Below are positions 32,938 to 49,923 of a DNA stretch of 64,000 bases, one piece after another; the stretch's first letter is position 1; every line of letters starts with the position of its first letter. The DNA is taken from contig CATOTF010000002.1 in the NCBI GenBank assembly GCA_951813045.1, forward strand, positions 2,790,001-2,854,000, in the 5' to 3' direction. The notes beneath the pieces are model-generated. The model saw nothing but the letters and a program-made list of their open reading frames with translations. It ran no database searches and was not told where the DNA came from. The stretch is from an uncultured Rhizobiaceae bacterium (GTDB lineage: Bacteria; Pseudomonadota; Alphaproteobacteria; Rhizobiales; Rhizobiaceae). Both the position numbers and the translations under genes were made by a program.

Positions 32938-33975
32938 ATGAGCACTTTGACACCGACTTCGAACACAATTATTCCGTCAACGTCGATGATCGACCCATTT
33001 GGTCGAACCGTCGATTATTTACGGGTGTCTGTCACCGACCGTTGCGATTTCCGTTGCGTCTATTGCATGTCGGAAGACATGACATTTCTGCCCAAGCGCG
33101 ACCTGCTGACACTTGAGGAATTGGACCGTCTTTGCAGCGGTTTCATCGAAAAAGGTGTGAAAAAACTGCGCCTTACCGGCGGTGAGCCCCTCGTGCGCAA
33201 AAATATCATGCAATTATTCCGCGGCCTGTCCCGGCACCTCGCCTCCGGTGCACTCGAAGAACTGACGCTCACGACGAATGGTTCTCAATTGGCAAAATAT
33301 GCCGACGAACTGGTCGATTGCGGTGTGAAACGGGTGAATGTCTCCATCGACACACTGGACCGGGATAAATTTGCCAAAATTACCCGCTGGGGCCAATTGG
33401 GCAAAGTTATGGAAGGTTTGGAGGCCGCGCGAAAAGCCGGACTAGCTATCAAGATCAATGCTGTTGCTCTCAAGGAGGTCAATGAGTTCGAGATCGAGGA
33501 CATGATGTCCTGGGCCCATGGGGAAGGTTTTGATCTGACGCTCATCGAAACCATGCCGCTTGGCGAAATAGAAGAGGACCGCACGGACCAATACCTGCCC
33601 CTTTCGCTGGTGCGCCGCCGCCTTGAAGAAAAATACACGCTCACTGAAATTGCCTATAAAACGGGTGGTCCTGCCCGCTATCTTGAAGTGAAAGAAACCG
33701 GCGGGCGGTTGGGGCTGATCACCCCCCTCACCCATAATTTTTGCGAAAGCTGCAACCGTGTGCGTGTCACCTGCACTGGTACTCTATTTATGTGCCTTGG
33801 ACAGGACGATGCAGCCGACCTGCGGGACCCGCTTCGGGCGTCCGAGGGGAACGAACTCCTATATGCCGCCATCGACGAAGCTATCGGCCGCAAACCCAAG
33901 GGCCATGATTTCGTGATCGAACGGAAAGGGGATGCCCCCGCCGTTAGCCGTCACATGTCGATGACCGGCGGGTGA
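32938..33975 (+). CDS. moaA: GTP 3',8-cyclase, molybdenum cofactor biosynthesis
   Basis: The protein has 345 aa; the conserved part starts at [19 protein letters not shown], so the ATG at 32986 is a possible true start. The radical-SAM cluster motif is CDFRCVYC, with [15 protein letters not shown] next. The C-terminal second cluster is [18 protein letters not shown], and the protein ends in the essential double glycine (MSMTGG). It rearranges GTP to the cyclic pterin precursor with MoaC. The next gene overlaps its stop by 4 bp, which is unusual for moaA. Confidence 0.97.
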
Positions 33976-35426
33976 ACAACACCACTGCTGAAGGCGCAGG
34001 TCGTGGAAGACGCCTCATAGGCTGGCTTCTGTTCATTCTGATTATGAGTGAACTCGCCTCAATATATCTAAACGTAGAACCTGCGCGTTATATCACGATT
34101 GCCTGTGTCTTAATTCTGCCGATACTGGGCTGGCGGCAGCTTAAAATCCGCGAGTTCTACCTCATTTCCATATGTTTTCTGCTGGCTGGCGCGGCGCTCG
34201 TGTGGTTTCCATCAGCAACGGATTGGATGCTGGAAGGGCTTACCCGCTCCGCCTATCTGGCGAGTTTCATCCTGCTCATGGCACTACTGCGCGAAGGGGC
34301 ATTGACGTCCCCTTCTATCGTGGCGCTTGGTGAATATCTGACCCAACAACCGCCGGCCCGGCGTTTTGTGGCCGTCTTTTCCGGCGGGCATTTTCTGTCC
34401 GTCATGATCAATCTGGGCTCACTCTCGCTGTTTGCTCCGATCATTCAGCGCGGTGTACGGGCAAGACTGGCACCCGGAGAAGAAGTTGACGAAATCGGCC
34501 TTATCCGGGAACGCAGGCAAATCTCAGCAGCGATTCGCGGTTTTTCATGGTTTCTCGTTTGGGCACCGACCGCTGTTACGCAGGCTGTCATGCCTACGTT
34601 GATGAGCGGAATTGATGCCCTTTATCTCATCAGCCTGGGGCTTTGCCTCGTACTTGTCATGCTAATTGTCAGTTGGGTGGAAGACACAATTCGCTGGTGG
34701 TCGTTCAGCAGATCGCGACGTGAAAGCGGGATCGCCCTCATGCGTCAAGAGCTTCCCTTTCCGCTGGTAGCTTTTCGAAACTTCGCGACAATTAGCTTCC
34801 TTCTTTTTGGATCATCCGTCCTATCTTCGAAATGGGCCGATGTCACAATCGTTTCCGGCGTCATGCTCGCGTCTCCAATTATTGTCGTTTTGTGGATAGC
34901 GGCACAATATGAAGCTGGTGCGCAGACCAGTTCGCGCAGCAAAGCCAGCGTCAATCGCCTGAATGAGATTACATTCACCGCCATGCCCGGCTATTTTCGC
35001 GAGGCCGTGTTTATTTCCTGCGCCGGATTTATCGGCACGATGGGTGCTCATCTGGTCCCCGTTGAACAACTCGCACAGGTGCTCGACATAGCTGCCGCGC
35101 CGGGATGGCTGGTGTTATGGTGCCTGACGATCTCTGTTTGGTTGTTCGGGCAGTTAGGCCTCAGCCCGATAACCATGGCGGTTTTTCTGGGCAGTATCGT
35201 TGCCAAAATTCCCGTTCTGCCGGTGGACATCACCCATGCGGCTCTAGCGATAGCGGCGGGCACTGCGGTGTGTTCAACCGGCGCTCCATTTTCAGCAGGT
35301 GCCATCATGTTGTCGCGGGCAACAGGATATTCCGCATTCACTCTCACATGGCGATGGAACGGCACCTACACAATCGCGGCGATTGCCGTTCTGGCGCTTG
35401 TGTATCTGGGGTTGGAGGGAGTTTAG
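33972..35426 (+). CDS. large integral membrane protein of unknown function
   Basis: The protein has 484 aa. It starts with GTG overlapping the moaA stop (GTGA), so it is translationally coupled to moaA. About 11 or 12 hydrophobic helices are visible, with a soluble loop near residues 150-185 ([25 protein letters not shown]) and another near 315-330. [29 protein letters not shown] and [25 protein letters not shown] near the C-terminus recall re-entrant loops of ion-transporter-fold permeases such as DctM or ArsB/NhaD types. I do not recognise the family and assign no substrate. Confidence 0.8.
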
Positions 35427-36682
35427 CGCACGAAGAAAGTTGCGGTTTCTGGTACGAATGTGACGATCATCAAGACCCCGAATATCAAGGCAATAAACGG
35501 TAGAACTGCAAGACAAATTTCATAAAAGCTTTCTTTGAATGCTGTCATTGCAACAATGATATTCAGCCCCAGTGGTGGTGTCAGGAAGCCGATTTCAAGA
35601 TTGATCACCATGATAATTCCAAAATGGATTGGATCGACCCCATAGGCCACCGCCGGTACCAGCAGGATTGGTGCCAAGATCAATATGGCTGAGATCACGT
35701 CGAACAGGCAGCCAACAATAAGCAGTAAAATATTGACCGCCAGCAGGAAAGCGAACTTATTATCGGTAAGCGATGTGATCCACAGAGCCAATTGGTCCGG
35801 CACTTCTTCAATGGTCAATATGGTTTTTAAACTGAGCGCCACGGCAACAATGGGAAACAACATGCCCAAAAGTTTTGCCGTATCCACCGCCGTATAATAA
35901 AAATCGATCAGCTTAAGTTCGCGATGGATGACAATCTCAACAAGCAACGCATAAACCAGCGCGACGGCAGCGGCTTCGGTCGGTGAGAAATATCCCGAAT
36001 AGATGCCACCAAGTAGAATGACGGGCAGCAATGCAGACCAACCGCCACGTATCAGGGCGCGGGTAAATTCAGACATGCTGAAAGGTTCTGAGGGAATATC
36101 CCGATTAATCCAGAACGAATAGCCAGCAAGCACAACGGCGATCATGATACCCGGAACAACCCCCGCAACGAAAAGGTCTGCAATCGAATTCTCCGTCACA
36201 ATCCCGTAAAGAATGAGTGGAATGGAAGGTGGTATGATAATGCCCAACGTCCCGCCGGATGTCAGCGCGCCAAGGGCAAAGCGTTTTGGATAGCCATGTT
36301 CGAGAAGCGCCGGATAAAGGATGGTTCCCACCGCAAGCAATGTGACCGGCGAAGAGCCGGAGATCGCCGCAAACACGGCGCAGGACAGGATTGTCGCAAC
36401 GGCCAGACCACCGGGGATTGGTTTGGTAACACTGATCGCAAGATCGATAAGTCGTTGGGCAATCGACCCGCGCGTCATCAGGTTCCCGGCCAGAAGGAAC
36501 ATGGGGATTGCCAGCAACAGCGCATTATCAAGGCTGATCCATATGTCCTCAGCCAAATATTCCAGTTTCCCGTCGCCCCACACCAGATGCACATAGGCGG
36601 CGGAGCCGAGCAAGATGACGATGATATTCTGCCGCAGCGCCAGCGCAGCAAGAACCAGAATGAGCAGTAAAACAGCCATCAT
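35423..36682 (-). CDS. dctM: TRAP transporter large permease subunit (DctM), sulfatase cluster
   Basis: The protein has 419 aa. Landmarks are LAIPMFLLAGNLMTRGSIAQRLIDL, AAISGSSPVTLLAVGTILYPALLEHGYPKRFALGALTSGGTLGIIIPPSIPLILYG, YSGYFSPTEAAAVALVYAL and EIGFLTPPLGLNIIVAMTAF. It is the translocation subunit. Its start abuts the dctQ stop. It is last in a three-gene minus-strand operon divergent from the TetR-sulfatase-FGE genes. Confidence 0.95.
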   Translation of the reverse strand: MMAVLLLILVLAALALRQNIIVILLGSAAYVHLVWGDGKLEYLAEDIWISLDNALLLAIPMFLLAGNLMTRGSIAQRLIDLAISVTKPIPGGLAVATILSCAVFAAISGSSPVTLLAVGTILYPALLEHGYPKRFALGALTSGGTLGIIIPPSIPLILYGIVTENSIADLFVAGVVPGIMIAVVLAGYSFWINRDIPSEPFSMSEFTRALIRGGWSALLPVILLGGIYSGYFSPTEAAAVALVYALLVEIVIHRELKLIDFYYTAVDTAKLLGMLFPIVAVALSLKTILTIEEVPDQLALWITSLTDNKFAFLLAVNILLLIVGCLFDVISAILILAPILLVPAVAYGVDPIHFGIIMVINLEIGFLTPPLGLNIIVAMTAFKESFYEICLAVLPFIALIFGVLMIVTFVPETATFFVR

Positions 36683-37176
36683 CAGCCTGGCCGCTCCGGC
36701 TGTTTATCGATTTTTAACTGCGGTTGAATACCAAAGGCGAGATGTTTCACCCCAGCAGAAATAAAGGCGTAAGGGATCACCAGTTGTAACGGCCACACGA
36801 AGAAATAGAGAACGGGTGCCCGGTCGCCACTCCCCATGGAGATGCCGACAAAGTTCGCAGCAACAAGCGCGCTGGCGAAAAAGAAAACCGCGGAAACGAA
36901 GTCGCCGATCCGTTTCACCAACACTTCATTTTTCGCGAAAACGAAATCCATAAATCCCGGGCGCAGGTGCGCGTTATCCGATGTGGCTAATGTGAGGCCA
37001 AGAAAACCGGCAATAATCGCGCCATAAACGGCTACCTGTTGGGCACCCAAAAAAGATGTGGCGAACAATTCACGCCCGACTACATCGACAATCAAAAGCG
37101 TCGCGACAGCAGCATAGGCTATTGTCGCGACGATTGATTCAACCAGCTTCAACCCTTTGACAATTGCTGAAAGCAT
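36682..37176 (-). CDS. dctQ: TRAP transporter small permease subunit (DctQ), sulfatase cluster
   Basis: The protein has 164 aa and four hydrophobic helices. TLLIVDVVGRELFATSFLGAQQVAVYGAIIAGFLGLTLATSDNAHLRPGFMDF is the usual DctQ core with the His-containing LR.D-like segment, and VIPYAFISAGVKHLAFG ends the last helix region. It starts 9 nt after the dctP stop and ends at the first base of dctM. Confidence 0.9.
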   Translation of the reverse strand: MLSAIVKGLKLVESIVATIAYAAVATLLIVDVVGRELFATSFLGAQQVAVYGAIIAGFLGLTLATSDNAHLRPGFMDFVFAKNEVLVKRIGDFVSAVFFFASALVAANFVGISMGSGDRAPVLYFFVWPLQLVIPYAFISAGVKHLAFGIQPQLKIDKQPERPG

Positions 37177-37185
37177 TGTGCGAAC

Positions 37186-38196
37186 TTATGAACAGGCGGC
37201 TTTCGCCTTTTGAATGGCATCCCATTTGGCTTTTGCAGCACCACCCATATCATCCAATATTGTTTTCTGGGCCTTGGGCACCAAAGCTTTCCATTCGGCC
37301 AGTTCAGCATCCGTTAACTCAATGATCGTGGCCCCTTCCCCTTTTGCCTTTTTAAGCAAGGCACCTTCGGCGCCACGCAATGCACCACGGAGACCAAGGA
37401 AGATGGGAGCCGCTTCATTTATCCACCCCTGCTCTTTTTCAGAAAGTCCTTCCCAGGTCTTTTTTGAGATAACCACACCGCCGACTTGGTGTTGGTGACG
37501 GGTCAACGTGATATGCGGGGCGACTTTTGGATAACCAACAACAATGCCGAATACTGACAATTGCGTACTTGCAGCAACCTGGCCGGTTTTCAACGCAGGA
37601 ATTGTATCTTTCGGGCTCAGCGGAACGGCCGTTCCTCCTGCTGTTTGAATATATTTTGTATCGGTGGCGGAAGGCGCGGTTCTGATTTTCACACCGGCAA
37701 GGTCTTTAGGAACACGGACACCATCCTTACTGAAAATCACCTGATACCCCACTTCCATCCACGAAAGCGTACGAATGCCTGCGTCATCAAACTCTTTTCC
37801 AAATGTGGTCAACAGATGTTTGTCGGCAACACAGTCAAACTGCTCCGCGCTGTCAAAGGCATAAGGCGACGCCAGAAGGCCAAACTCAGGTACAAGCAAT
37901 GATACAGCTGTGTTTGACATGACACCCATATCGACGCGACCCCGCGCAATCTGCTTGATGACATCCTGCTCGCCACCGAGTTTAGAGCCCATGAACGCCT
38001 TAACGGTGAGTTCACCACCCGACAGTTCTGCAACCTTATCGACAAACTTCTGCGCCACCGAACCCCACGGTGAATTGGGTGGTGGGGCCATCGAAAGGCG
38101 CAATTCGCCAGCGCCTGCGGATACCACACCTATAGCAAGTGCCGTTGCCGCTAATGCTGCTTTAGAACCGGATTTCACAAATCTATTGTTGAACAT
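37186..38196 (-). CDS. dctP: TRAP transporter substrate-binding protein (DctP), sulfatase cluster
   Basis: The protein has 336 aa. The Sec signal peptide is FVKSGSKAALAATALAIGVVSAGAGE. The mature part carries APPNSPWGSVAQKFVDKVAELSGGELTVKAF, then GGEQDVIKQIARGRVDMGVM and the DLAGVKIRTAPSATDTKYIQTAGGTAVPL region, holding the Arg that normally salt-bridges an anionic ligand. It is first in the dctPQM operon. Shared control region and neighbourhood with a sulfatase suggest that the ligand is a sulfated small molecule (inference). Confidence 0.93.
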   Translation of the reverse strand: MFNNRFVKSGSKAALAATALAIGVVSAGAGELRLSMAPPPNSPWGSVAQKFVDKVAELSGGELTVKAFMGSKLGGEQDVIKQIARGRVDMGVMSNTAVSLLVPEFGLLASPYAFDSAEQFDCVADKHLLTTFGKEFDDAGIRTLSWMEVGYQVIFSKDGVRVPKDLAGVKIRTAPSATDTKYIQTAGGTAVPLSPKDTIPALKTGQVAASTQLSVFGIVVGYPKVAPHITLTRHQHQVGGVVISKKTWEGLSEKEQGWINEAAPIFLGLRGALRGAEGALLKKAKGEGATIIELTDAELAEWKALVPKAQKTILDDMGGAAKAKWDAIQKAKAACS

Positions 38197-38308
38197 GATC
38201 TTCTCCCTAATGCCCCATCACGACGGGCGCTAATAATTCGAATGTCCCATGCATCCGATCCTCCGACTGAAAGGCTAGGGGCGACATTGGCGTGAGTCAA
38301 CAATAAGA

Positions 38309-38328
38309 ACATGAATTCATATTCATGT
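38309..38328. promoter_or_regulatory. inverted repeat, probable TetR operator
   Basis: A perfect 8-bp inverted repeat with 4-bp spacer, ACATGAAT-TCAT-ATTCATGT, lies mid-way between dctP (minus) and the TetR gene (plus). An outer, wider inverted pair GTCAACA (38296-38302) and TGTTGAC (38346-38352) surrounds it. It fits a site for the adjacent TetR protein to control both directions. Confidence 0.7.
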
Positions 38329-38331
38329 ACT

Positions 38332-38361
38332 TTGACAATACGTGCTGTTGACCGTTAGCCT
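38332..38361 (+). promoter_or_regulatory. candidate sigma-70 promoter for TetR-sulfatase-FGE
   Basis: TTGACA (38332-38337), 18-bp spacer, TAGCCT (38356-38361). A mirror pair exists on the minus strand: TTGACT (38300-38295), 17-bp spacer, then TAGCCT toward dctP. The two -35 boxes flank the inverted repeat, a layout expected for one operator controlling divergent promoters. The -10 boxes are weak. Confidence 0.4.
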
Positions 38362-38400
38362 GAGATAATAAAGATTCATCAGGCCCCGAAACAACCGCCC

Positions 38401-39075
38401 ATGAACGACGTTGCGATTGATAGATCTGCTGACATTTCAGAAAAGACACCGGGCGTATTTCAGGCCCGGCAAAAACGCAGCGTACGCATTCGCGATGAAT
38501 TCATACTGGCCGGTGTTGAAGCCTTAAATGAAATGCGGTTTTCCGAATTAACGGTCTCTCAACTGGCCACATTTAGTGGCAATTCGGTTGGCAGTTTTTA
38601 CACACGATTTAAAGACAAGGATGCCTATTTTGGCGCTTTGCGCGCCCATGCAATCGAAACGCTGGATACTGAAATAGATACGCGATTCACCGCACAAATC
38701 CTGCGGAATATGGAGCCTGACGACGCCTTATCCCTCCTTGTTGACCTTTTGGGCGATATATTCACAAGCCGCTTTCGAGGCGTACTTCGAGAATCCTTGT
38801 TACAGATTTTGGAGCCCGGTGACCCTTGGGGACTTATGCGGCAATCGGCACAGGGCATAATCGTCAGTCTCCATACGGGATTGAGCAACGCCTTTCCGCA
38901 TTACAACCAAAAAGAAACCAGGACCCGGTTGAGTTTTTGCTTTCAGATGATTGTTGGGGTTCTACAAAATGACCTCGTCAACGATTATCATGTATTTTCA
39001 ACGCGCGACCAATCCATCCGCCAAGGTCTAAAAGAGGCGGTATCCAGCTACATGAGATTTGATCCACGAAAGTAA
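38401..39075 (+). CDS. TetR-family regulator of the sulfatase/TRAP cluster
   Basis: The protein has 224 aa. The helix-turn-helix is in about residues 20-70: RQKRSVRIRDEFILAGVEALNEMRFSELTVSQLATFSGNSVGSFYTRFKDKDAYFGAL. A helical ligand-binding domain follows. It is encoded 4 nt before the sulfatase start on the same strand and faces dctPQM. It probably senses the sulfated compound or its product and controls both sides. Confidence 0.92.
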   Translation: MNDVAIDRSADISEKTPGVFQARQKRSVRIRDEFILAGVEALNEMRFSELTVSQLATFSGNSVGSFYTRFKDKDAYFGALRAHAIETLDTEIDTRFTAQILRNMEPDDALSLLVDLLGDIFTSRFRGVLRESLLQILEPGDPWGLMRQSAQGIIVSLHTGLSNAFPHYNQKETRTRLSFCFQMIVGVLQNDLVNDYHVFSTRDQSIRQGLKEAVSSYMRFDPRK

Positions 39076-39079
39076 ATTG

Positions 39080-40570
39080 ATGACTAAAAAACCCAATATT
39101 GTTTTGATTTTTACAGACAATCAACAGGCGTCGACCTTGGGCTGTTATGGGAATTCTGAAATCCATACGCCCAATCTTGATCACCTTTCAGCAAGTGGCC
39201 TGACCTTTGATAATGCCTTTTGTCCCAATGCATTTTGTTCCCCCTGTCGTGCGTCCCTTTTGACTGGGCAACTGCCGTCGCAACACGGGGTTCACAGCTG
39301 GATTGATGACCGCAATATGGCGGAATGGCCCCGCGGCTGGCATGCGTTGAACGGTATGCAGACCCTGCCCGTCCTCATGAAGGAAAACGGATATTCAACC
39401 GCACTGGTGGGCAAATATCATTTGGGTGAGCCGACTTCTGCTGCAGAAGGTTTTGATAATTGGGTAACCCTTGAAGACGGCCATGTGCGCAGTTTTTATA
39501 GAAACAAGATTTTCGATAACGGTAAGATCTACGAACAACCGGGCCATTCAGTAGATTTCTTTACGGACAAAGCCACCGAGTTCATGCACGAGCAGGTGGC
39601 ACAGGAGCAGCCGTTTTTCCTATATCTCCCTTATCCTGCACCCTATGGCCATTGGCCCGCAACAAAAGAAGCGGAGACCTGCCGTCATACGGAGCGCTAT
39701 AAGGATTGTCCGATAAATTCCGTTCCAAGGCAGGCGTTAAGCAAAAAGGCTGTCGATGGTTTTCTGCTTTCTGAATCCGGTTCCACCAAGGACCTTGATT
39801 TCTCAATGCTCATGCGCGCGCCGAATGATCTGGATACTTTGCGGAATTATTACGCTCAAATTTCCATGGTTGATGATGGCGTCGGGCTGGTAATGAAAAC
39901 CCTGGAAGAGCTGGGCATTGACGAAGACACATTGCTCATTTTCACAACTGATCACGGGCTTTCGGTTGGACAGCACGGGTTTTGGGGGCATGGTGGCGCT
40001 TGTTTCCCGTCAAACCTCCACCGTGCCGCCCATTCCATCCCGATGATTGTGCGGCAGGCCGGTACAACACCAGTTGGCGGACGATCAAAACTCATGGTAT
40101 CCAATATGGACCTGTTTGCAACGGTGCTGGAGCATGCGGGAATCGGCGCACCTGAGACGGATGAAGTCGTTCCGAGCCGCTCCTTGCTTCCCATATTCAA
40201 AAATGAAGATCTCGCAGATTGGGGGGCCGATGCAGTGTATTCCGAACAGGAGGAAACCCGCGTCATCCGTACACCCAAATGGGCCTATTTCAAACGTTTC
40301 CAAAAACAAGACGGACCTGTCCTCGAAAACGAACTCTACGATGTGGAACTGGATCCACATGAAACGACCAATCTTTCCGGCGACCCGAAATATGCAACCG
40401 AAGAAAGCAAGCTTGACACCATGTTAGCCGCATTTTTTGCCGAGCACGTAAGCCCGCGCGCTGACCTTTGGTCAGGAGGTGTTCCGGTGCAAAACACATT
40501 ACGGCCCGCCTTCTGGCGCGAAGCCTGGGGGGATGGCTGGGCACCGGTCTACCGATATGAAACGGACTGA
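39080..40570 (+). CDS. type I (formylglycine) sulfatase, cytoplasmic
   Basis: The protein has 496 aa from MTKKPNIVLIFTDNQQ; no signal peptide, so it acts in the cytoplasm. The metal-binding Asp is in FTDN. The sulfatase signature AFCSPCRASLLTGQ carries Cys53, which is oxidised to formylglycine, with Arg57. LVGKYHLGE supplies the Lys and His of the second signature. LLIFTTDHGLSVGQHGFWGHGG supplies Asp, His and the late active-site residues. It hydrolyses a sulfate ester. The absence of export signal together with a dedicated TRAP importer points to a small imported organosulfate. The FGE gene overlaps its 3' end by 14 bp. Confidence 0.95.
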   Translation: MTKKPNIVLIFTDNQQASTLGCYGNSEIHTPNLDHLSASGLTFDNAFCPNAFCSPCRASLLTGQLPSQHGVHSWIDDRNMAEWPRGWHALNGMQTLPVLMKENGYSTALVGKYHLGEPTSAAEGFDNWVTLEDGHVRSFYRNKIFDNGKIYEQPGHSVDFFTDKATEFMHEQVAQEQPFFLYLPYPAPYGHWPATKEAETCRHTERYKDCPINSVPRQALSKKAVDGFLLSESGSTKDLDFSMLMRAPNDLDTLRNYYAQISMVDDGVGLVMKTLEELGIDEDTLLIFTTDHGLSVGQHGFWGHGGACFPSNLHRAAHSIPMIVRQAGTTPVGGRSKLMVSNMDLFATVLEHAGIGAPETDEVVPSRSLLPIFKNEDLADWGADAVYSEQEETRVIRTPKWAYFKRFQKQDGPVLENELYDVELDPHETTNLSGDPKYATEESKLDTMLAAFFAEHVSPRADLWSGGVPVQNTLRPAFWREAWGDGWAPVYRYETD

Positions 40571-41507
40571 AGAAGCAGGAACGGAGGCAGATTGCTGTGT
40601 TCCCAAAATAACAATCAATGAAGCCAGCCCTTCTGCGACCGCTGGAACAAAAAACTTAGCAGAAATCCATCATGATTTTCAGCCGATAACTGGTGGTTGG
40701 TTCTCTATGGGTGCTGATGACGGGCCGTACCCCCAAGATGGTGAGGGACCCATACGGGAGGTTTTTGTCGATCCGTTTTCCATATCAAACACATCGGTTA
40801 CCAATCGGCAGTTCGCTCGCTTTGTCGGTGAAACCAAATACAAAACCGTAGCGGAAGATCTCGGTTGGTCTTTCGTATTTCACATGAATGCGCCCACCGG
40901 CAATGCTTTGCAAAGGGTGCAGCATACCCCATGGTGGTGCCGGGTAGACGGTGCCCGTTGGTCGTCACCTCATGGACCAGACTCAACACATGAAGAACGT
41001 GATGACCACCCCGTGGTTCATATAACATTACAGGATGCTCTGGCCTATTGTGCATGGGCACACTGCCGTCTCCCCACCGAAGCGGAATGGGAATATGCCG
41101 CGCGCGGTGGCCTTGATGGCCAACCGTATCCATGGGGCAGTGAATTAAAACCCAACGATATTGAAATGTCGAACACATGGAACGGCATCTTTCCAAACCA
41201 AAATGATAATGCTGACGGTTTGATCGGCACCAGACCTGTAACGCACTACACGCCTAACAGCTTTGGCCTTTTCAATATGAACGGCAATGTCTGGGAATGG
41301 ACAAATGACCGTTTCACCCATCTTCATTCCCCTCGTCCCACAAAGAACCCGACAGGCCCGTTAAACGGCGCTCAATATGTAGCGAAAGGCGGCTCATACC
41401 TTTGTCATGAATCCTATTGCGTGCGATATCGCACTTCATCACGACAGGCGCTTGAGCCATTGACAGTCGCTGACAACATCGGCTTCCGGGTTGTTCGTGT
41501 TAAGTGA
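40557..41507 (+). CDS. formylglycine-generating enzyme (sulfatase-maturing)
   Basis: The protein has 316 aa from ATG 40557, inside the sulfatase 3' end. The FGE-sulfatase domain is seen in GGWFSMGADDGPYPQDGEGPIREVFVDPFSISNTSVTNRQFARFV, then CRLPTEAEWEYAARGG, NMNGNVWEWTNDRF and AKGGSYLCHESYCVRYRTSSRQ. The cysteine pair with C-x4-C spacing (about Cys283 and Cys288) is the copper-binding active pair of true FGE, as opposed to many FGE-like proteins. It converts the sulfatase Cys53 to formylglycine with O2. Co-translation with its client enzyme is likely. Confidence 0.95.
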   Translation: MKRTEEAGTEADCCVPKITINEASPSATAGTKNLAEIHHDFQPITGGWFSMGADDGPYPQDGEGPIREVFVDPFSISNTSVTNRQFARFVGETKYKTVAEDLGWSFVFHMNAPTGNALQRVQHTPWWCRVDGARWSSPHGPDSTHEERDDHPVVHITLQDALAYCAWAHCRLPTEAEWEYAARGGLDGQPYPWGSELKPNDIEMSNTWNGIFPNQNDNADGLIGTRPVTHYTPNSFGLFNMNGNVWEWTNDRFTHLHSPRPTKNPTGPLNGAQYVAKGGSYLCHESYCVRYRTSSRQALEPLTVADNIGFRVVRVK

Positions 41508-48159: not shown

Positions 48160-49923
48160 ATGAATATCCCAAAACACATAGCCACATCCATCCTTTTTCT
48201 ATCTGTAACGGCTTCCCCTGCCGCAATCGCGCAGCAAACCGCAGACAGTATTTCACCGGAGGCTGCAGTTGCTCTTGAAGCAAAAAAGCGAGGAGAAACG
48301 GTCAAATCGAACAAATGGATGGTCGCCGTGGCCAATCCGTTGGCTGCAAAAACCGCTGCTGACGTATTAAGAAACGGCGGTACCGCCGCCGATGCAGCAG
48401 TTGCAGCGCAGGCGATGTTGGGACTTGTGGAGCCACAGAGTTCCGGCCTGGGCGGCGGCGCCTTTCTCGTTTATCGAAATGGGAATACTGGAGAATTGAC
48501 GACCTTGGATGGGCGCGAGACGGCACCCGCCGCCGCCACACCAAAACTGTTTCAGGATGAAAAGGGCGAACCTTTAAAATTCTTCACAGCCGTCATTGGT
48601 GGTCGTTCAGTTGGGGTGCCCGGCACTCCAGCTCTCATGGAAGATATGCACAAGCGGTGGGGTAAAACCCCCTGGAAAAACTTGCTTCAACCGGCAATCG
48701 ATACCGCTACAAACGGATTTAAAGTTTCACCACGGCTTGCTGGACTAATTGCGTCAGGGGCTGAGCGACTTTCACAACATAATCCAACGAAAGACTACTT
48801 CCTCCCTGCTGGAAAACCTCTTCAAGCCGGTACAACCCTGAAAAATGAGCAATATGCACAAACATTGAGCGATATCGCGAAAAACGGAGCCAGCGCATTC
48901 TACACCGGCGCGATTGCCAACGCTGTGGTCAACACCGTTCAGGGGTTCACTGCAAATCCGGGTGTTATGTCGCTGGATGATTTGGCTGGATACAAAGTGA
49001 TCGAGCGCAAAGCGGTGTGCGGAGATTACCGTCAGTATCAGGTTTGCGGCATGGGCCCGCCATCATCCGGAGCATTGACTGTTGGGCAAATTCTTGGACT
49101 TCTGCAACCCTATGACCTGGCTAAACTCGGCCCTAAAAGCCCCGAAGCATGGCGATTAATAGGGGACGCTTCACGTCTCGCCTTCGCAGACAGGGGTCGC
49201 TATATGGCCGATTCCGATTTCGTAAAAATGCCAACGAAAGGACTGTTGAAACCGGGGTATCTAAAATCCCGATCCGCACTCCTCAATTCCAGCGCGGCCT
49301 TGGAAGAAGTATCGGCTGGCGAGCCGGAATGGGATGATGCGGAATTATGGGCGGATGATGAATCCATCGAACTGCCCTCAACTTCTCATTTTTCAATCGT
49401 CGATGGTCAGGGCAATATGGTTTCCATGACCACAACCATTGAGAATGGATTTGGGTCCCGTTTGATGACCAATGGCTTCCTGCTCAACAATGAATTGACC
49501 GACTTTTCCTTCCGGGATCAAAAAGACGGCAATCCGATTGCCAACCGCGTGGAGCCGGGTAAACGTCCACGATCTTCCATGTCTCCAACCATTGTAACGA
49601 AGGATGGAGAACCAGTACTCGTCATCGGGTCACCGGGAGGTAGCCGGATTATTGGTTACGTCGCCAAAACGATCATCGCTCATCTTGATTGGGGAATGGA
49701 TATTCAGCAAGCCATCTCAAGCCCGCATCTCGTCAACCGGTTTGGAAAATATGACCTCGAGGAAAACACATCTGCCGTCGAGCTAAAACCTGCGTTGGAA
49801 GCGTTGGGGTACGAAACTGAGATCCGGGGGTTAACCTCGGGCCTGCACGGAATCGCAATCTCAGCCAGCGGGTTGGAAGGTGGCGCAGATCACCGCCGCG
49901 AAGGAATTGTGTTAGGTGAATAG
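48160..49923 (+). CDS. ggt: gamma-glutamyltransferase, periplasmic
   Basis: The protein has 587 aa. The signal peptide is IATSILFLSVTASPAAIAQQ. N-terminal domain landmarks are AVANPLAAKTAADVLRNGGTAADAAVAAQAMLGLVEPQSSGLGGGAFLVY and LDGRETAP (Arg binding the gamma-glutamyl carboxylate). The autocleavage Thr is in LPSTSHFSIVDGQGNMVSMTTTIENGFGS, then PGKRPRSSMSPTIV. The proenzyme cleaves itself before that Thr, which then acts as nucleophile on glutathione or gamma-glutamyl amides. The gene is divergent from the secretion genes, alone, and followed by a hairpin. Confidence 0.95.
   Translation: MNIPKHIATSILFLSVTASPAAIAQQTADSISPEAAVALEAKKRGETVKSNKWMVAVANPLAAKTAADVLRNGGTAADAAVAAQAMLGLVEPQSSGLGGGAFLVYRNGNTGELTTLDGRETAPAAATPKLFQDEKGEPLKFFTAVIGGRSVGVPGTPALMEDMHKRWGKTPWKNLLQPAIDTATNGFKVSPRLAGLIASGAERLSQHNPTKDYFLPAGKPLQAGTTLKNEQYAQTLSDIAKNGASAFYTGAIANAVVNTVQGFTANPGVMSLDDLAGYKVIERKAVCGDYRQYQVCGMGPPSSGALTVGQILGLLQPYDLAKLGPKSPEAWRLIGDASRLAFADRGRYMADSDFVKMPTKGLLKPGYLKSRSALLNSSAALEEVSAGEPEWDDAELWADDESIELPSTSHFSIVDGQGNMVSMTTTIENGFGSRLMTNGFLLNNELTDFSFRDQKDGNPIANRVEPGKRPRSSMSPTIVTKDGEPVLVIGSPGGSRIIGYVAKTIIAHLDWGMDIQQAISSPHLVNRFGKYDLEENTSAVELKPALEALGYETEIRGLTSGLHGIAISASGLEGGADHRREGIVLGE

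Follow-up and report, generated by a model that had tools for sequence, protein, structure and literature searches.

Does a set of adjacent genes for an importer, a regulator, a sulfatase and a sulfatase-activating enzyme serve the uptake of a small sulfate ester and its cleavage inside the cell? This question is raised by a locus of an uncultured marine Rhizobiaceae bacterium, found in the 64,000-nucleotide stretch of DNA analysed here (the window; G000:C2:2790001-2854000, from a genome of 4.84 Mb in two contigs). The genes dctPQM, encoding an importer of the tripartite ATP-independent periplasmic (TRAP) type, are on the minus strand, and beyond an inverted repeat come the plus-strand genes of a TetR-family regulator, a cytoplasmic Cys-type S1 sulfatase and a formylglycine-generating enzyme (FGE). 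We estimate the probability at about 0.6 that this is a TetR-regulated module for the uptake and desulfation of a small anionic organosulfate. As a unit the locus is real and compact and is probably co-regulated, and there is comparative support for uptake coupled to desulfation: in the relatives that have the module, the sulfatase, the TetR and the putative operator are retained, and it is the importer (two kinds of TRAP, TctC/TctA) that is exchanged, as is the maturase in one case.

In the mechanism proposed here, the TRAP importer would take up a small organosulfur anion, which is most likely a sulfate ester. In the cytoplasm the sulfatase, after conversion of its Cys53 into formylglycine by the FGE, would cleave the imported ester. 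The TetR would bind the inverted repeat with the core GAAT-N4-ATTC, which adjoins the -35-like box of the transporter's promoter, and would set the importer and the enzyme jointly, in response to the substrate or the product. The released alcohol would be oxidized by enzymes encoded elsewhere, for which the GMC alcohol-dehydrogenase-like gene seen near the sulfatase in four relatives may be an example.

Gene identities and the sulfatase active site

The initial annotation had described six genes at this locus, and all six are at the positions claimed (Table 1), including the 14-bp overlap of the sulfatase and FGE genes. The family assignment is firm for five of the proteins, which score above the Pfam cut-offs for Sulfatase, FGE-sulfatase, DctP, DctQ and DctM, respectively. 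The genes of the three TRAP subunits are adjacent and on one strand. The N-terminus of DctP resembles a signal peptide when inspected by eye, and Arg171 of its KIR motif is kept, being invariant in 7 of 7 aligned DctP sequences; in TRAP binding proteins this arginine grips an acidic group. Against the isethionate-binding DctP 8t9t, the DctP of the window scores E 1.4e-11, which is far from its best match. For the TetR the single lines of evidence are weak: it has no Pfam match at E 0.001 and only weak NCBIfam matches, and two of its relatives match TetR_N at 22.1 and 20.1 bits, below the cut-off of 24. These are backed by the profile of 11 relatives that matches solved TetR proteins, such that the helix-turn-helix and the fold of the family are indicated weakly but consistently.

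The sulfatase is a formylglycine sulfatase of the S1 family, as shown by its PF00884 score of 179.8 bits against a cut-off of 25. The CSPCR motif is present, confirming the Cys-type signature. The N-terminus, MTKKPNIVLIFTDN, begins straight at the first strand of the fold when read by eye; there is therefore no room for a signal peptide, which bears out the earlier statement that it lacks one. Residues C53, P55 and R57 and the Asp residues taken as metal-binding, D13 and D291, are invariant in 36 of the 36 aligned sulfatases, an alignment from which locus L041 was excluded. The His/Lys pair that usually provides the general acid is not found: when aligned with solved S1 enzymes, the sulfatase has Tyr189 and His304 at these positions, and both are again invariant in all 36 rows. 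This pair is not a strict feature of S1 membership. In the AlphaFold2 model the mean pLDDT (predicted local distance difference test) is 87.8 and the region 300-305 is weak, so that the Lys-equivalent position, His304, is less sure. The paralogue L005 of the same genome, which is the only one that could be compared by script, keeps both His and Lys.

When the model is compared with solved structures by Foldseek, the top match is 5g2v (E 2.3e-34), and the best structural and profile matches are carbohydrate sulfatases. With the S1 carbohydrate 6-O-sulfatases, such as BT4656 (5g2v), the window sulfatase shares the fold, the position of the Cys/formylglycine, the N-terminal Asp and the GKxH motifs. 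It differs from BT4656 in having 24% identity over the Foldseek alignment, no signal peptide, and Tyr189/His304 in place of the usual His/Lys; no glycan genes were noticed around it. The same matches bear on the possibility that the enzyme is a phosphonate monoester or phosphodiester hydrolase of this superfamily and that the imported compound is a phospho-ester. This would agree with the changed general-acid pair and with the promiscuity of superfamily members, as described in part of PMC5870055. However, the score on PehA is 122.9 against a cut-off of 900, the top matches are the carbohydrate sulfatases just mentioned, and in some relatives the sulfatase has sulfotransferase and alkylsulfatase genes as neighbours, which makes a phospho-ester an improbable substrate.

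One of the closest described arrangements is the bet system of rhizobia and roseobacters, which comprises the choline sulfatase BetC, the regulator BetI and choline importers. As proposed for the window, a cytoplasmic Cys-type S1 sulfatase is combined there with import of a small organosulfate as the first step and with a TetR-family regulator. Could the TRAP then import choline-O-sulfate, with a BetC-like choline sulfatase cleaving it and the GMC and aldehyde dehydrogenase proteins of relatives oxidizing the choline? The sulfatase does match the choline-sulfatase equivalog TIGR03417 (155.6 bits), the TetR weakly matches BetI (21.7 bits), and the GMC protein of the related locus L011 matches the betA model at 415.3 bits, but all three are far below the bet equivalog cut-offs (433.45, 201.3 and 732.1, respectively), and the identity as a choline sulfatase was rejected on the TIGR03417 score. 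Unlike in the bet system, the importer here is TRAP or TctC/TctA, and the general-acid residues appear different. The choline sulfatase of Sinorhizobium meliloti has His201 and Lys309 as its general-acid pair, according to part of PMC5870055, and these seem to correspond to Tyr189 and His304 when aligned through other S1 enzymes. We consider a choline-O-sulfate system very improbable for this locus. The betC gene is also listed for Ruegeria pomeroyi in part of PMC9038784.

Table 1. Features of the divergent locus and their positions in the window
Feature	Position	Strand	Evidence
dctM, TRAP large permease, 419 residues	35423..36682	-	PF06808 326.7 bits; TIGR00786 over cut-off
dctQ, TRAP small permease, 164 residues; 1-bp overlap with dctM	36682..37176	-	PF04290 44 bits
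dctP, periplasmic solute-binding protein, 336 residues	37186..38196	-	PF03480 162.2 bits; NF037995 over cut-off
Inverted repeat ACATGAAT-TCAT-ATTCATGT, putative TetR operator	38309..38328	strandless	Repeat search and cross-species conservation
tetR-family regulator, 224 residues	38401..39075	+	Profile against PDB TetR proteins, E 2.4e-5; 47-60% identity to 10 relatives
Cys-type S1 sulfatase, 496 residues, CSPCRASLLTGQ from residue 53	39080..40570	+	PF00884 179.8 bits
Formylglycine-generating enzyme, 316 residues, GGSYLCHESYC pair	40557..41507	+	PF03781 261.2 bits; PDB FGE 8aru, E 6.6e-86

Next to dctM, positions 33972-35426 of the window encode a hydrophobic protein of 484 residues, for which Pfam gives no match at E 0.001. 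Its gene and the end of a gene that looks MoaA-like by eye (32938-33975) overlap, and the two are possibly coupled. The window has no Rfam match at the gathering score and no tRNA.

Importers, regulator and putative operator in related loci

A scan of genome contigs gave 45 sulfatase loci (labelled L, with their genomes labelled G); records very near the window are possibly omitted from it. The relatives considered here are the 26 loci with a sulfatase identity of at least 55% (L011-L034, L047 and L050), of which L034 and L047 have partial sulfatases and L031 is a near-duplicate of L024. The latter is counted among the 26 loci and was dropped from the tree, which has 46 rows, six of 52 being omitted (three duplicates, the near-duplicate L031 and two partial sequences). 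The window sulfatase groups with that of L017 (96/85), beside 12 Granulosicoccaceae or allied rows (94/91), in a 24-row clade (100/100) that also holds Rhodobacterales and others. This clade is uncommon, occurring in 4 of 297 genomes of the family (E 1e-100) and in 5 of 385 genomes of the class (E 1e-150), the own genome being counted in both, and the sulfatase was searched for on plasmids with no match.

Of the 26 relative loci, 10 have an importer immediately next to the sulfatase (11 of 27 when including the window). A constant separation of the two halves, which had been named at the outset as an observation that would speak against the unit, is thus not seen. The adjacent importers are of three kinds, all of them binding-protein-dependent secondary importers. 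The window-type TRAP is at the same place in L017 (genome G277, same genus), where DctM, DctQ and DctP are 86%, 70% and 84% identical, respectively; no common gene cluster is present in the outer flanks compared. A second TRAP, whose DctP is about 21% identical to the window type, occupies the same divergent place in L011, L019, L020 and L034, and in L012 and L015 only its cut-off dctP is visible, at the contig end. The third kind is TctC/TctA, with TctA immediately upstream of the sulfatase in L025, L026 and L027 and TctC preceding TctA in L025 and L026. At some distance, an NMT1_3 (Pfam) binding protein and a DctM-like permease, which we take to be a TAXI-type TRAP, are encoded in L028 past the FGE and one more gene; L028 also encodes an MBL alkylsulfatase and a further sulfatase. 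L013 has a TRAP about 4 kb downstream of the sulfatase. In the remaining loci, several of them with short flanks, these methods reveal no importer in the vicinity of the sulfatase. The genes of the neighbour loci were called as greedy open reading frames, which are poor in the GC-rich L025, L027, L032 and L076-L079; tblastn brought out the importers in L025 and L027, and importers of unlike families may be missed elsewhere.

Other genes near the sulfatase encode a GMC oxidoreductase (L011, L020, L024 and L031), a sulfotransferase (L011, L019 and L020), an MBL alkylsulfatase (L019 and L020) and an epoxide-hydrolase-like protein (L024 and L031). This set of neighbours fits a sulfated alcohol as the substrate.

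The TetR gene lies between the importer and the sulfatase in the window and in L011, L012, L015, L017, L019 and L020, and in L025 and L026 it is divergent from a unit in which a metallophosphoesterase-like gene is followed by TctC, TctA and the sulfatase. Few genomes have a member of this TetR subfamily (4 of 297 in the family and 1 of 385 in the class, both counts including the genome of the window), as against 8 of the 24 genomes holding sulfatase relatives. The DctP of the second TRAP kind is present in six of the 14 gammaproteobacterial sulfatase genomes, and the TetR occurs in five of these six and in none of the other eight, for which the hand-calculated one-sided chance, ignoring kinship, is 6/2002. 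These 14 genomes (12 Granulosicoccaceae, one Granulosicoccus and one Chromatiales) are mostly metagenome bins, in which absence may reflect incompleteness. When the 11 TetRs are aligned, a stretch in the C-terminal half, LQNDL-NDYH, is invariant, which suggests that they may respond to a similar effector.

The 204 bp that separate the divergent dctP and tetR contain a single inverted repeat with arms of at least 6 bp, the one listed in Table 1. It had been described as a perfect 20-bp dyad; the 8-bp arms are indeed perfect, but the 4-bp spacer TCAT is not palindromic. A dyad search allowing up to three mismatches gives one match in the window, with 0 mismatches, against 0.47 expected, which is modest in isolation. 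It is because of its conservation across species that the putative operator is more than a chance sequence. The core GAAT-N4-ATTC occupies 38313-38324 in the window and is followed, 12 nt later on the dctP strand, by a TTGACT box. Of the 11 transporter promoter regions compared, 9 have this core (chance 0.003-0.02 each), and it is off by one base in L025 and in L034, where there is no TetR. The 11 sites include those of L104 and L105, the latter being near-identical to L012. On the transporter strand, which is the strand examined, a TTGAC box is 7-12 nt past the core in 11 of 11 sites (7 nt in nine, 8 in L017 and 12 in the window). By base shuffling, a box of this kind would turn up within 15 nt with a probability of about 0.012 per site. 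Because the putative site is upstream of this -35-like box, both repression and activation would be possible, and the earlier description of an induced pathway is plausible. A link of the importer to the cytoplasmic sulfatase through one TetR and a conserved putative operator is thus supported, and the pairing is seen again with other importer kinds.

In L034 (5537-5854), where the TetR is missing, the TRAP and the sulfatase are still divergent and the operator core has its one changed base, as if decaying. A second GAAT-N4-ATTC site is present at position 49694 of the window.

Maturation of the sulfatase

The FGE is a full member of its family (SUMF1) by sequence. Its GGSYLCHESYC is aligned with GGSYMCHRSYC of a solved FGE, in agreement with the C-x4-C active pair noted before. 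The initial annotation had also called it the private activator of the adjacent sulfatase, and this does not hold when considering the whole genome. There are 12 PF00884 matches, which correspond to 11 genes (two matches share one frame), one of the matches (C2:312202) spanning a stop codon. All 11 sulfatase genes have the active-site Cys, 10 of them in CxPxR and one in CGSSR. PF03781 has two matches. The second (93.2 bits) has no C-x4-C pair, and the stretch overlapped by it resembles, by eye, a copper nitrite reductase neighbourhood; the anaerobic maturase model TIGR03942 has no match in this genome. Because the window FGE is the only recognisable FGE, alongside 11 Cys-type sulfatase genes and with no anaerobic maturase matched, it most likely also serves other sulfatases of the genome and is not dedicated to the one that it overlaps.

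The FGE gene directly follows the sulfatase in 13 of the 23 loci with more than 1.2 kb downstream (among which L024 and L031 are near-duplicates). A PF03781 match is present in all 25 genomes searched, at 200 bits or more in 22 of them; in two the best match has 190 and 197 bits, and in G696, the genome of L026, it has 32.9 bits. In L026 a complete anaerobic sulfatase maturase, a true member of TIGR03942 (490.1 bits, cut-off 349.45), is encoded at 1558-2766 beside the TetR and near the sulfatase. It appears that the activator has been swapped here, in a bin without a clear FGE; G696 is a metagenome bin, and the absence of the FGE may be due to incompleteness. Genes resembling the anaerobic maturase also adjoin the sulfatase in L035 and L041. 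In L035 (6447-10980), from an Anaerolineales bin, the sulfatase is in three tandem copies, with the anaerobic-maturase-like gene alongside.

The imported compound and the significance of the proposed module

Several observations weigh against an uptake and desulfation module. No importer was found directly beside the sulfatase in 16 of the 26 relative loci by these methods, several of the flanks being short, and among the loci scanned the exact six-gene set is present only in the window and in L017. The synteny that had been proposed as a check does recur, but it is confined to this congener, some of the other relatives carrying other importers, and a widespread occurrence of the six-gene set was therefore rejected. 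The TetR is absent (E 1e-30) from 16 of the 24 whole sulfatase genomes, including those of L027, with TctA, and L034, with TRAP. Of the 23 loci whose downstream flank exceeds 1.2 kb, 10 have no FGE gene behind the sulfatase, and the window unit has no gene for the alcohol that the sulfatase would release. In the congener G082 a lone TetR (62%; L088 9933-10673) is found, by eye, between a large multidomain gene and flagellar genes, a context that was rejected as uninformative.

The same TRAP and TetR also occur without a sulfatase beside them, in G021 (L080) and G698 (L104). In G021, whose DctP has 76% identity, the gene of the TetR (59%) comes last, behind dctM and in the same orientation. The operator core occurs twice in the region before dctP, and among the divergent genes are those of a 443-residue protein, an aldehyde dehydrogenase and a TauE/SafE protein. 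This cassette recurs in G698 (84%, 86% and 61% identity) beside the same TRAP, TetR and operator core, a SnoaL-like protein being shown in the cassette for L104 only. G698 is also the genome of L028; its sulfatase is on another contig, near another importer. The conserved 443-residue protein (L080 11128-12459; L104 2911-4242) could not be named, having no Pfam family and a best PDB match of E 0.79. At E 1e-60 the DctP query (P0004) finds six of the 297 family genomes, and around the more distant DctP relatives of G064 (50%), G066 (42%) and G279 (38%) no member of the sulfatase clade is present in the stretches examined, one of which is just 6.4 kb.

The TRAP and TetR half can therefore exist apart. 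Its occurrence without an adjacent sulfatase in G021 and G698 means that the ligand is not necessarily a sulfate ester: it may belong either to a wider class of organosulfur acids or to compounds other than sulfate esters. The unit had been described as self-contained, and its layout is real, but this description, like the choice of an organosulfate as the ligand, is weakened by the missing product gene, by the TRAP and TetR found without the sulfatase and by the loci without an adjacent importer. It is conceivable that the TRAP and TetR import a non-sulfated or sulfonated small anion and that the sulfatase and FGE of the window are neighbours recruited to the regulator for a side metabolite, as the cassettes facing the same TRAP, TetR and operator core in L080 and L104, and the separate contig of the G698 sulfatase, would suggest. 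A joining of sulfatase and TetR solely in the genus of the window is hard to uphold, however, because the TetR is at the sulfatase locus with other importers in seven further genomes (with the second TRAP in five and with TctC/TctA in two), and the TauE-family genes of the other cassette also hint at organosulfur chemistry. We regard this explanation as unlikely, though deserving of serious attention, and prefer the module for a small anionic organosulfate.

DHPS (2,3-dihydroxypropane-1-sulfonate) and isethionate are C-S sulfonates. The TRAP importers hpsKLM (DHPS) and iseKLM (isethionate) of Ruegeria pomeroyi are described in part of PMC9038784. They resemble the window system, as proposed here, in the TRAP uptake of a small organosulfur anion and differ from it in that no sulfatase is involved. 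In the open-access literature no paper evidently describes the present set, as judged from titles and the starts of abstracts, which does not imply that it is absent from print. A search for TRAP transporter, sulfatase, formylglycine and operon had a single match, on Latescibacteria, and one for organosulfate, TRAP transporter and sulfatase had none.

Fourteen of the 26 relative loci (L011, L012, L014-L022, L033, L034 and L047) come from bins named in the style of a macroalgal survey, in which Saccharina, Ulva, Grateloupia and Gelidium are abbreviated to B, L, H and R, respectively (part of PMC10233909). Judged by this naming, the 14 loci would derive from that survey. That some relatives retain the sulfatase and the TetR while the importer differs suggests a genuine but little-studied use of small sulfated molecules, which are probably of algal origin. 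It can be proposed, tentatively and with somewhat less than even confidence, that these loci represent an undescribed class of modules in which TRAP or TctC/TctA import intact small algal sulfate esters into macroalgal epiphytes, where cytoplasmic sulfatases with an altered general-acid pair cleave them under the control of one conserved TetR and operator. As far as is known, marine sulfatases have been studied mostly for their action on algal polysaccharides. A separate flux of small organosulfates would be indicated by a sulfatase that is cytoplasmic and is linked to importers with binding proteins, and, if true, the class would contain the first TRAP systems that import sulfate esters. The conserved putative operator, together with its regulator, would offer a direct route to the inducer.

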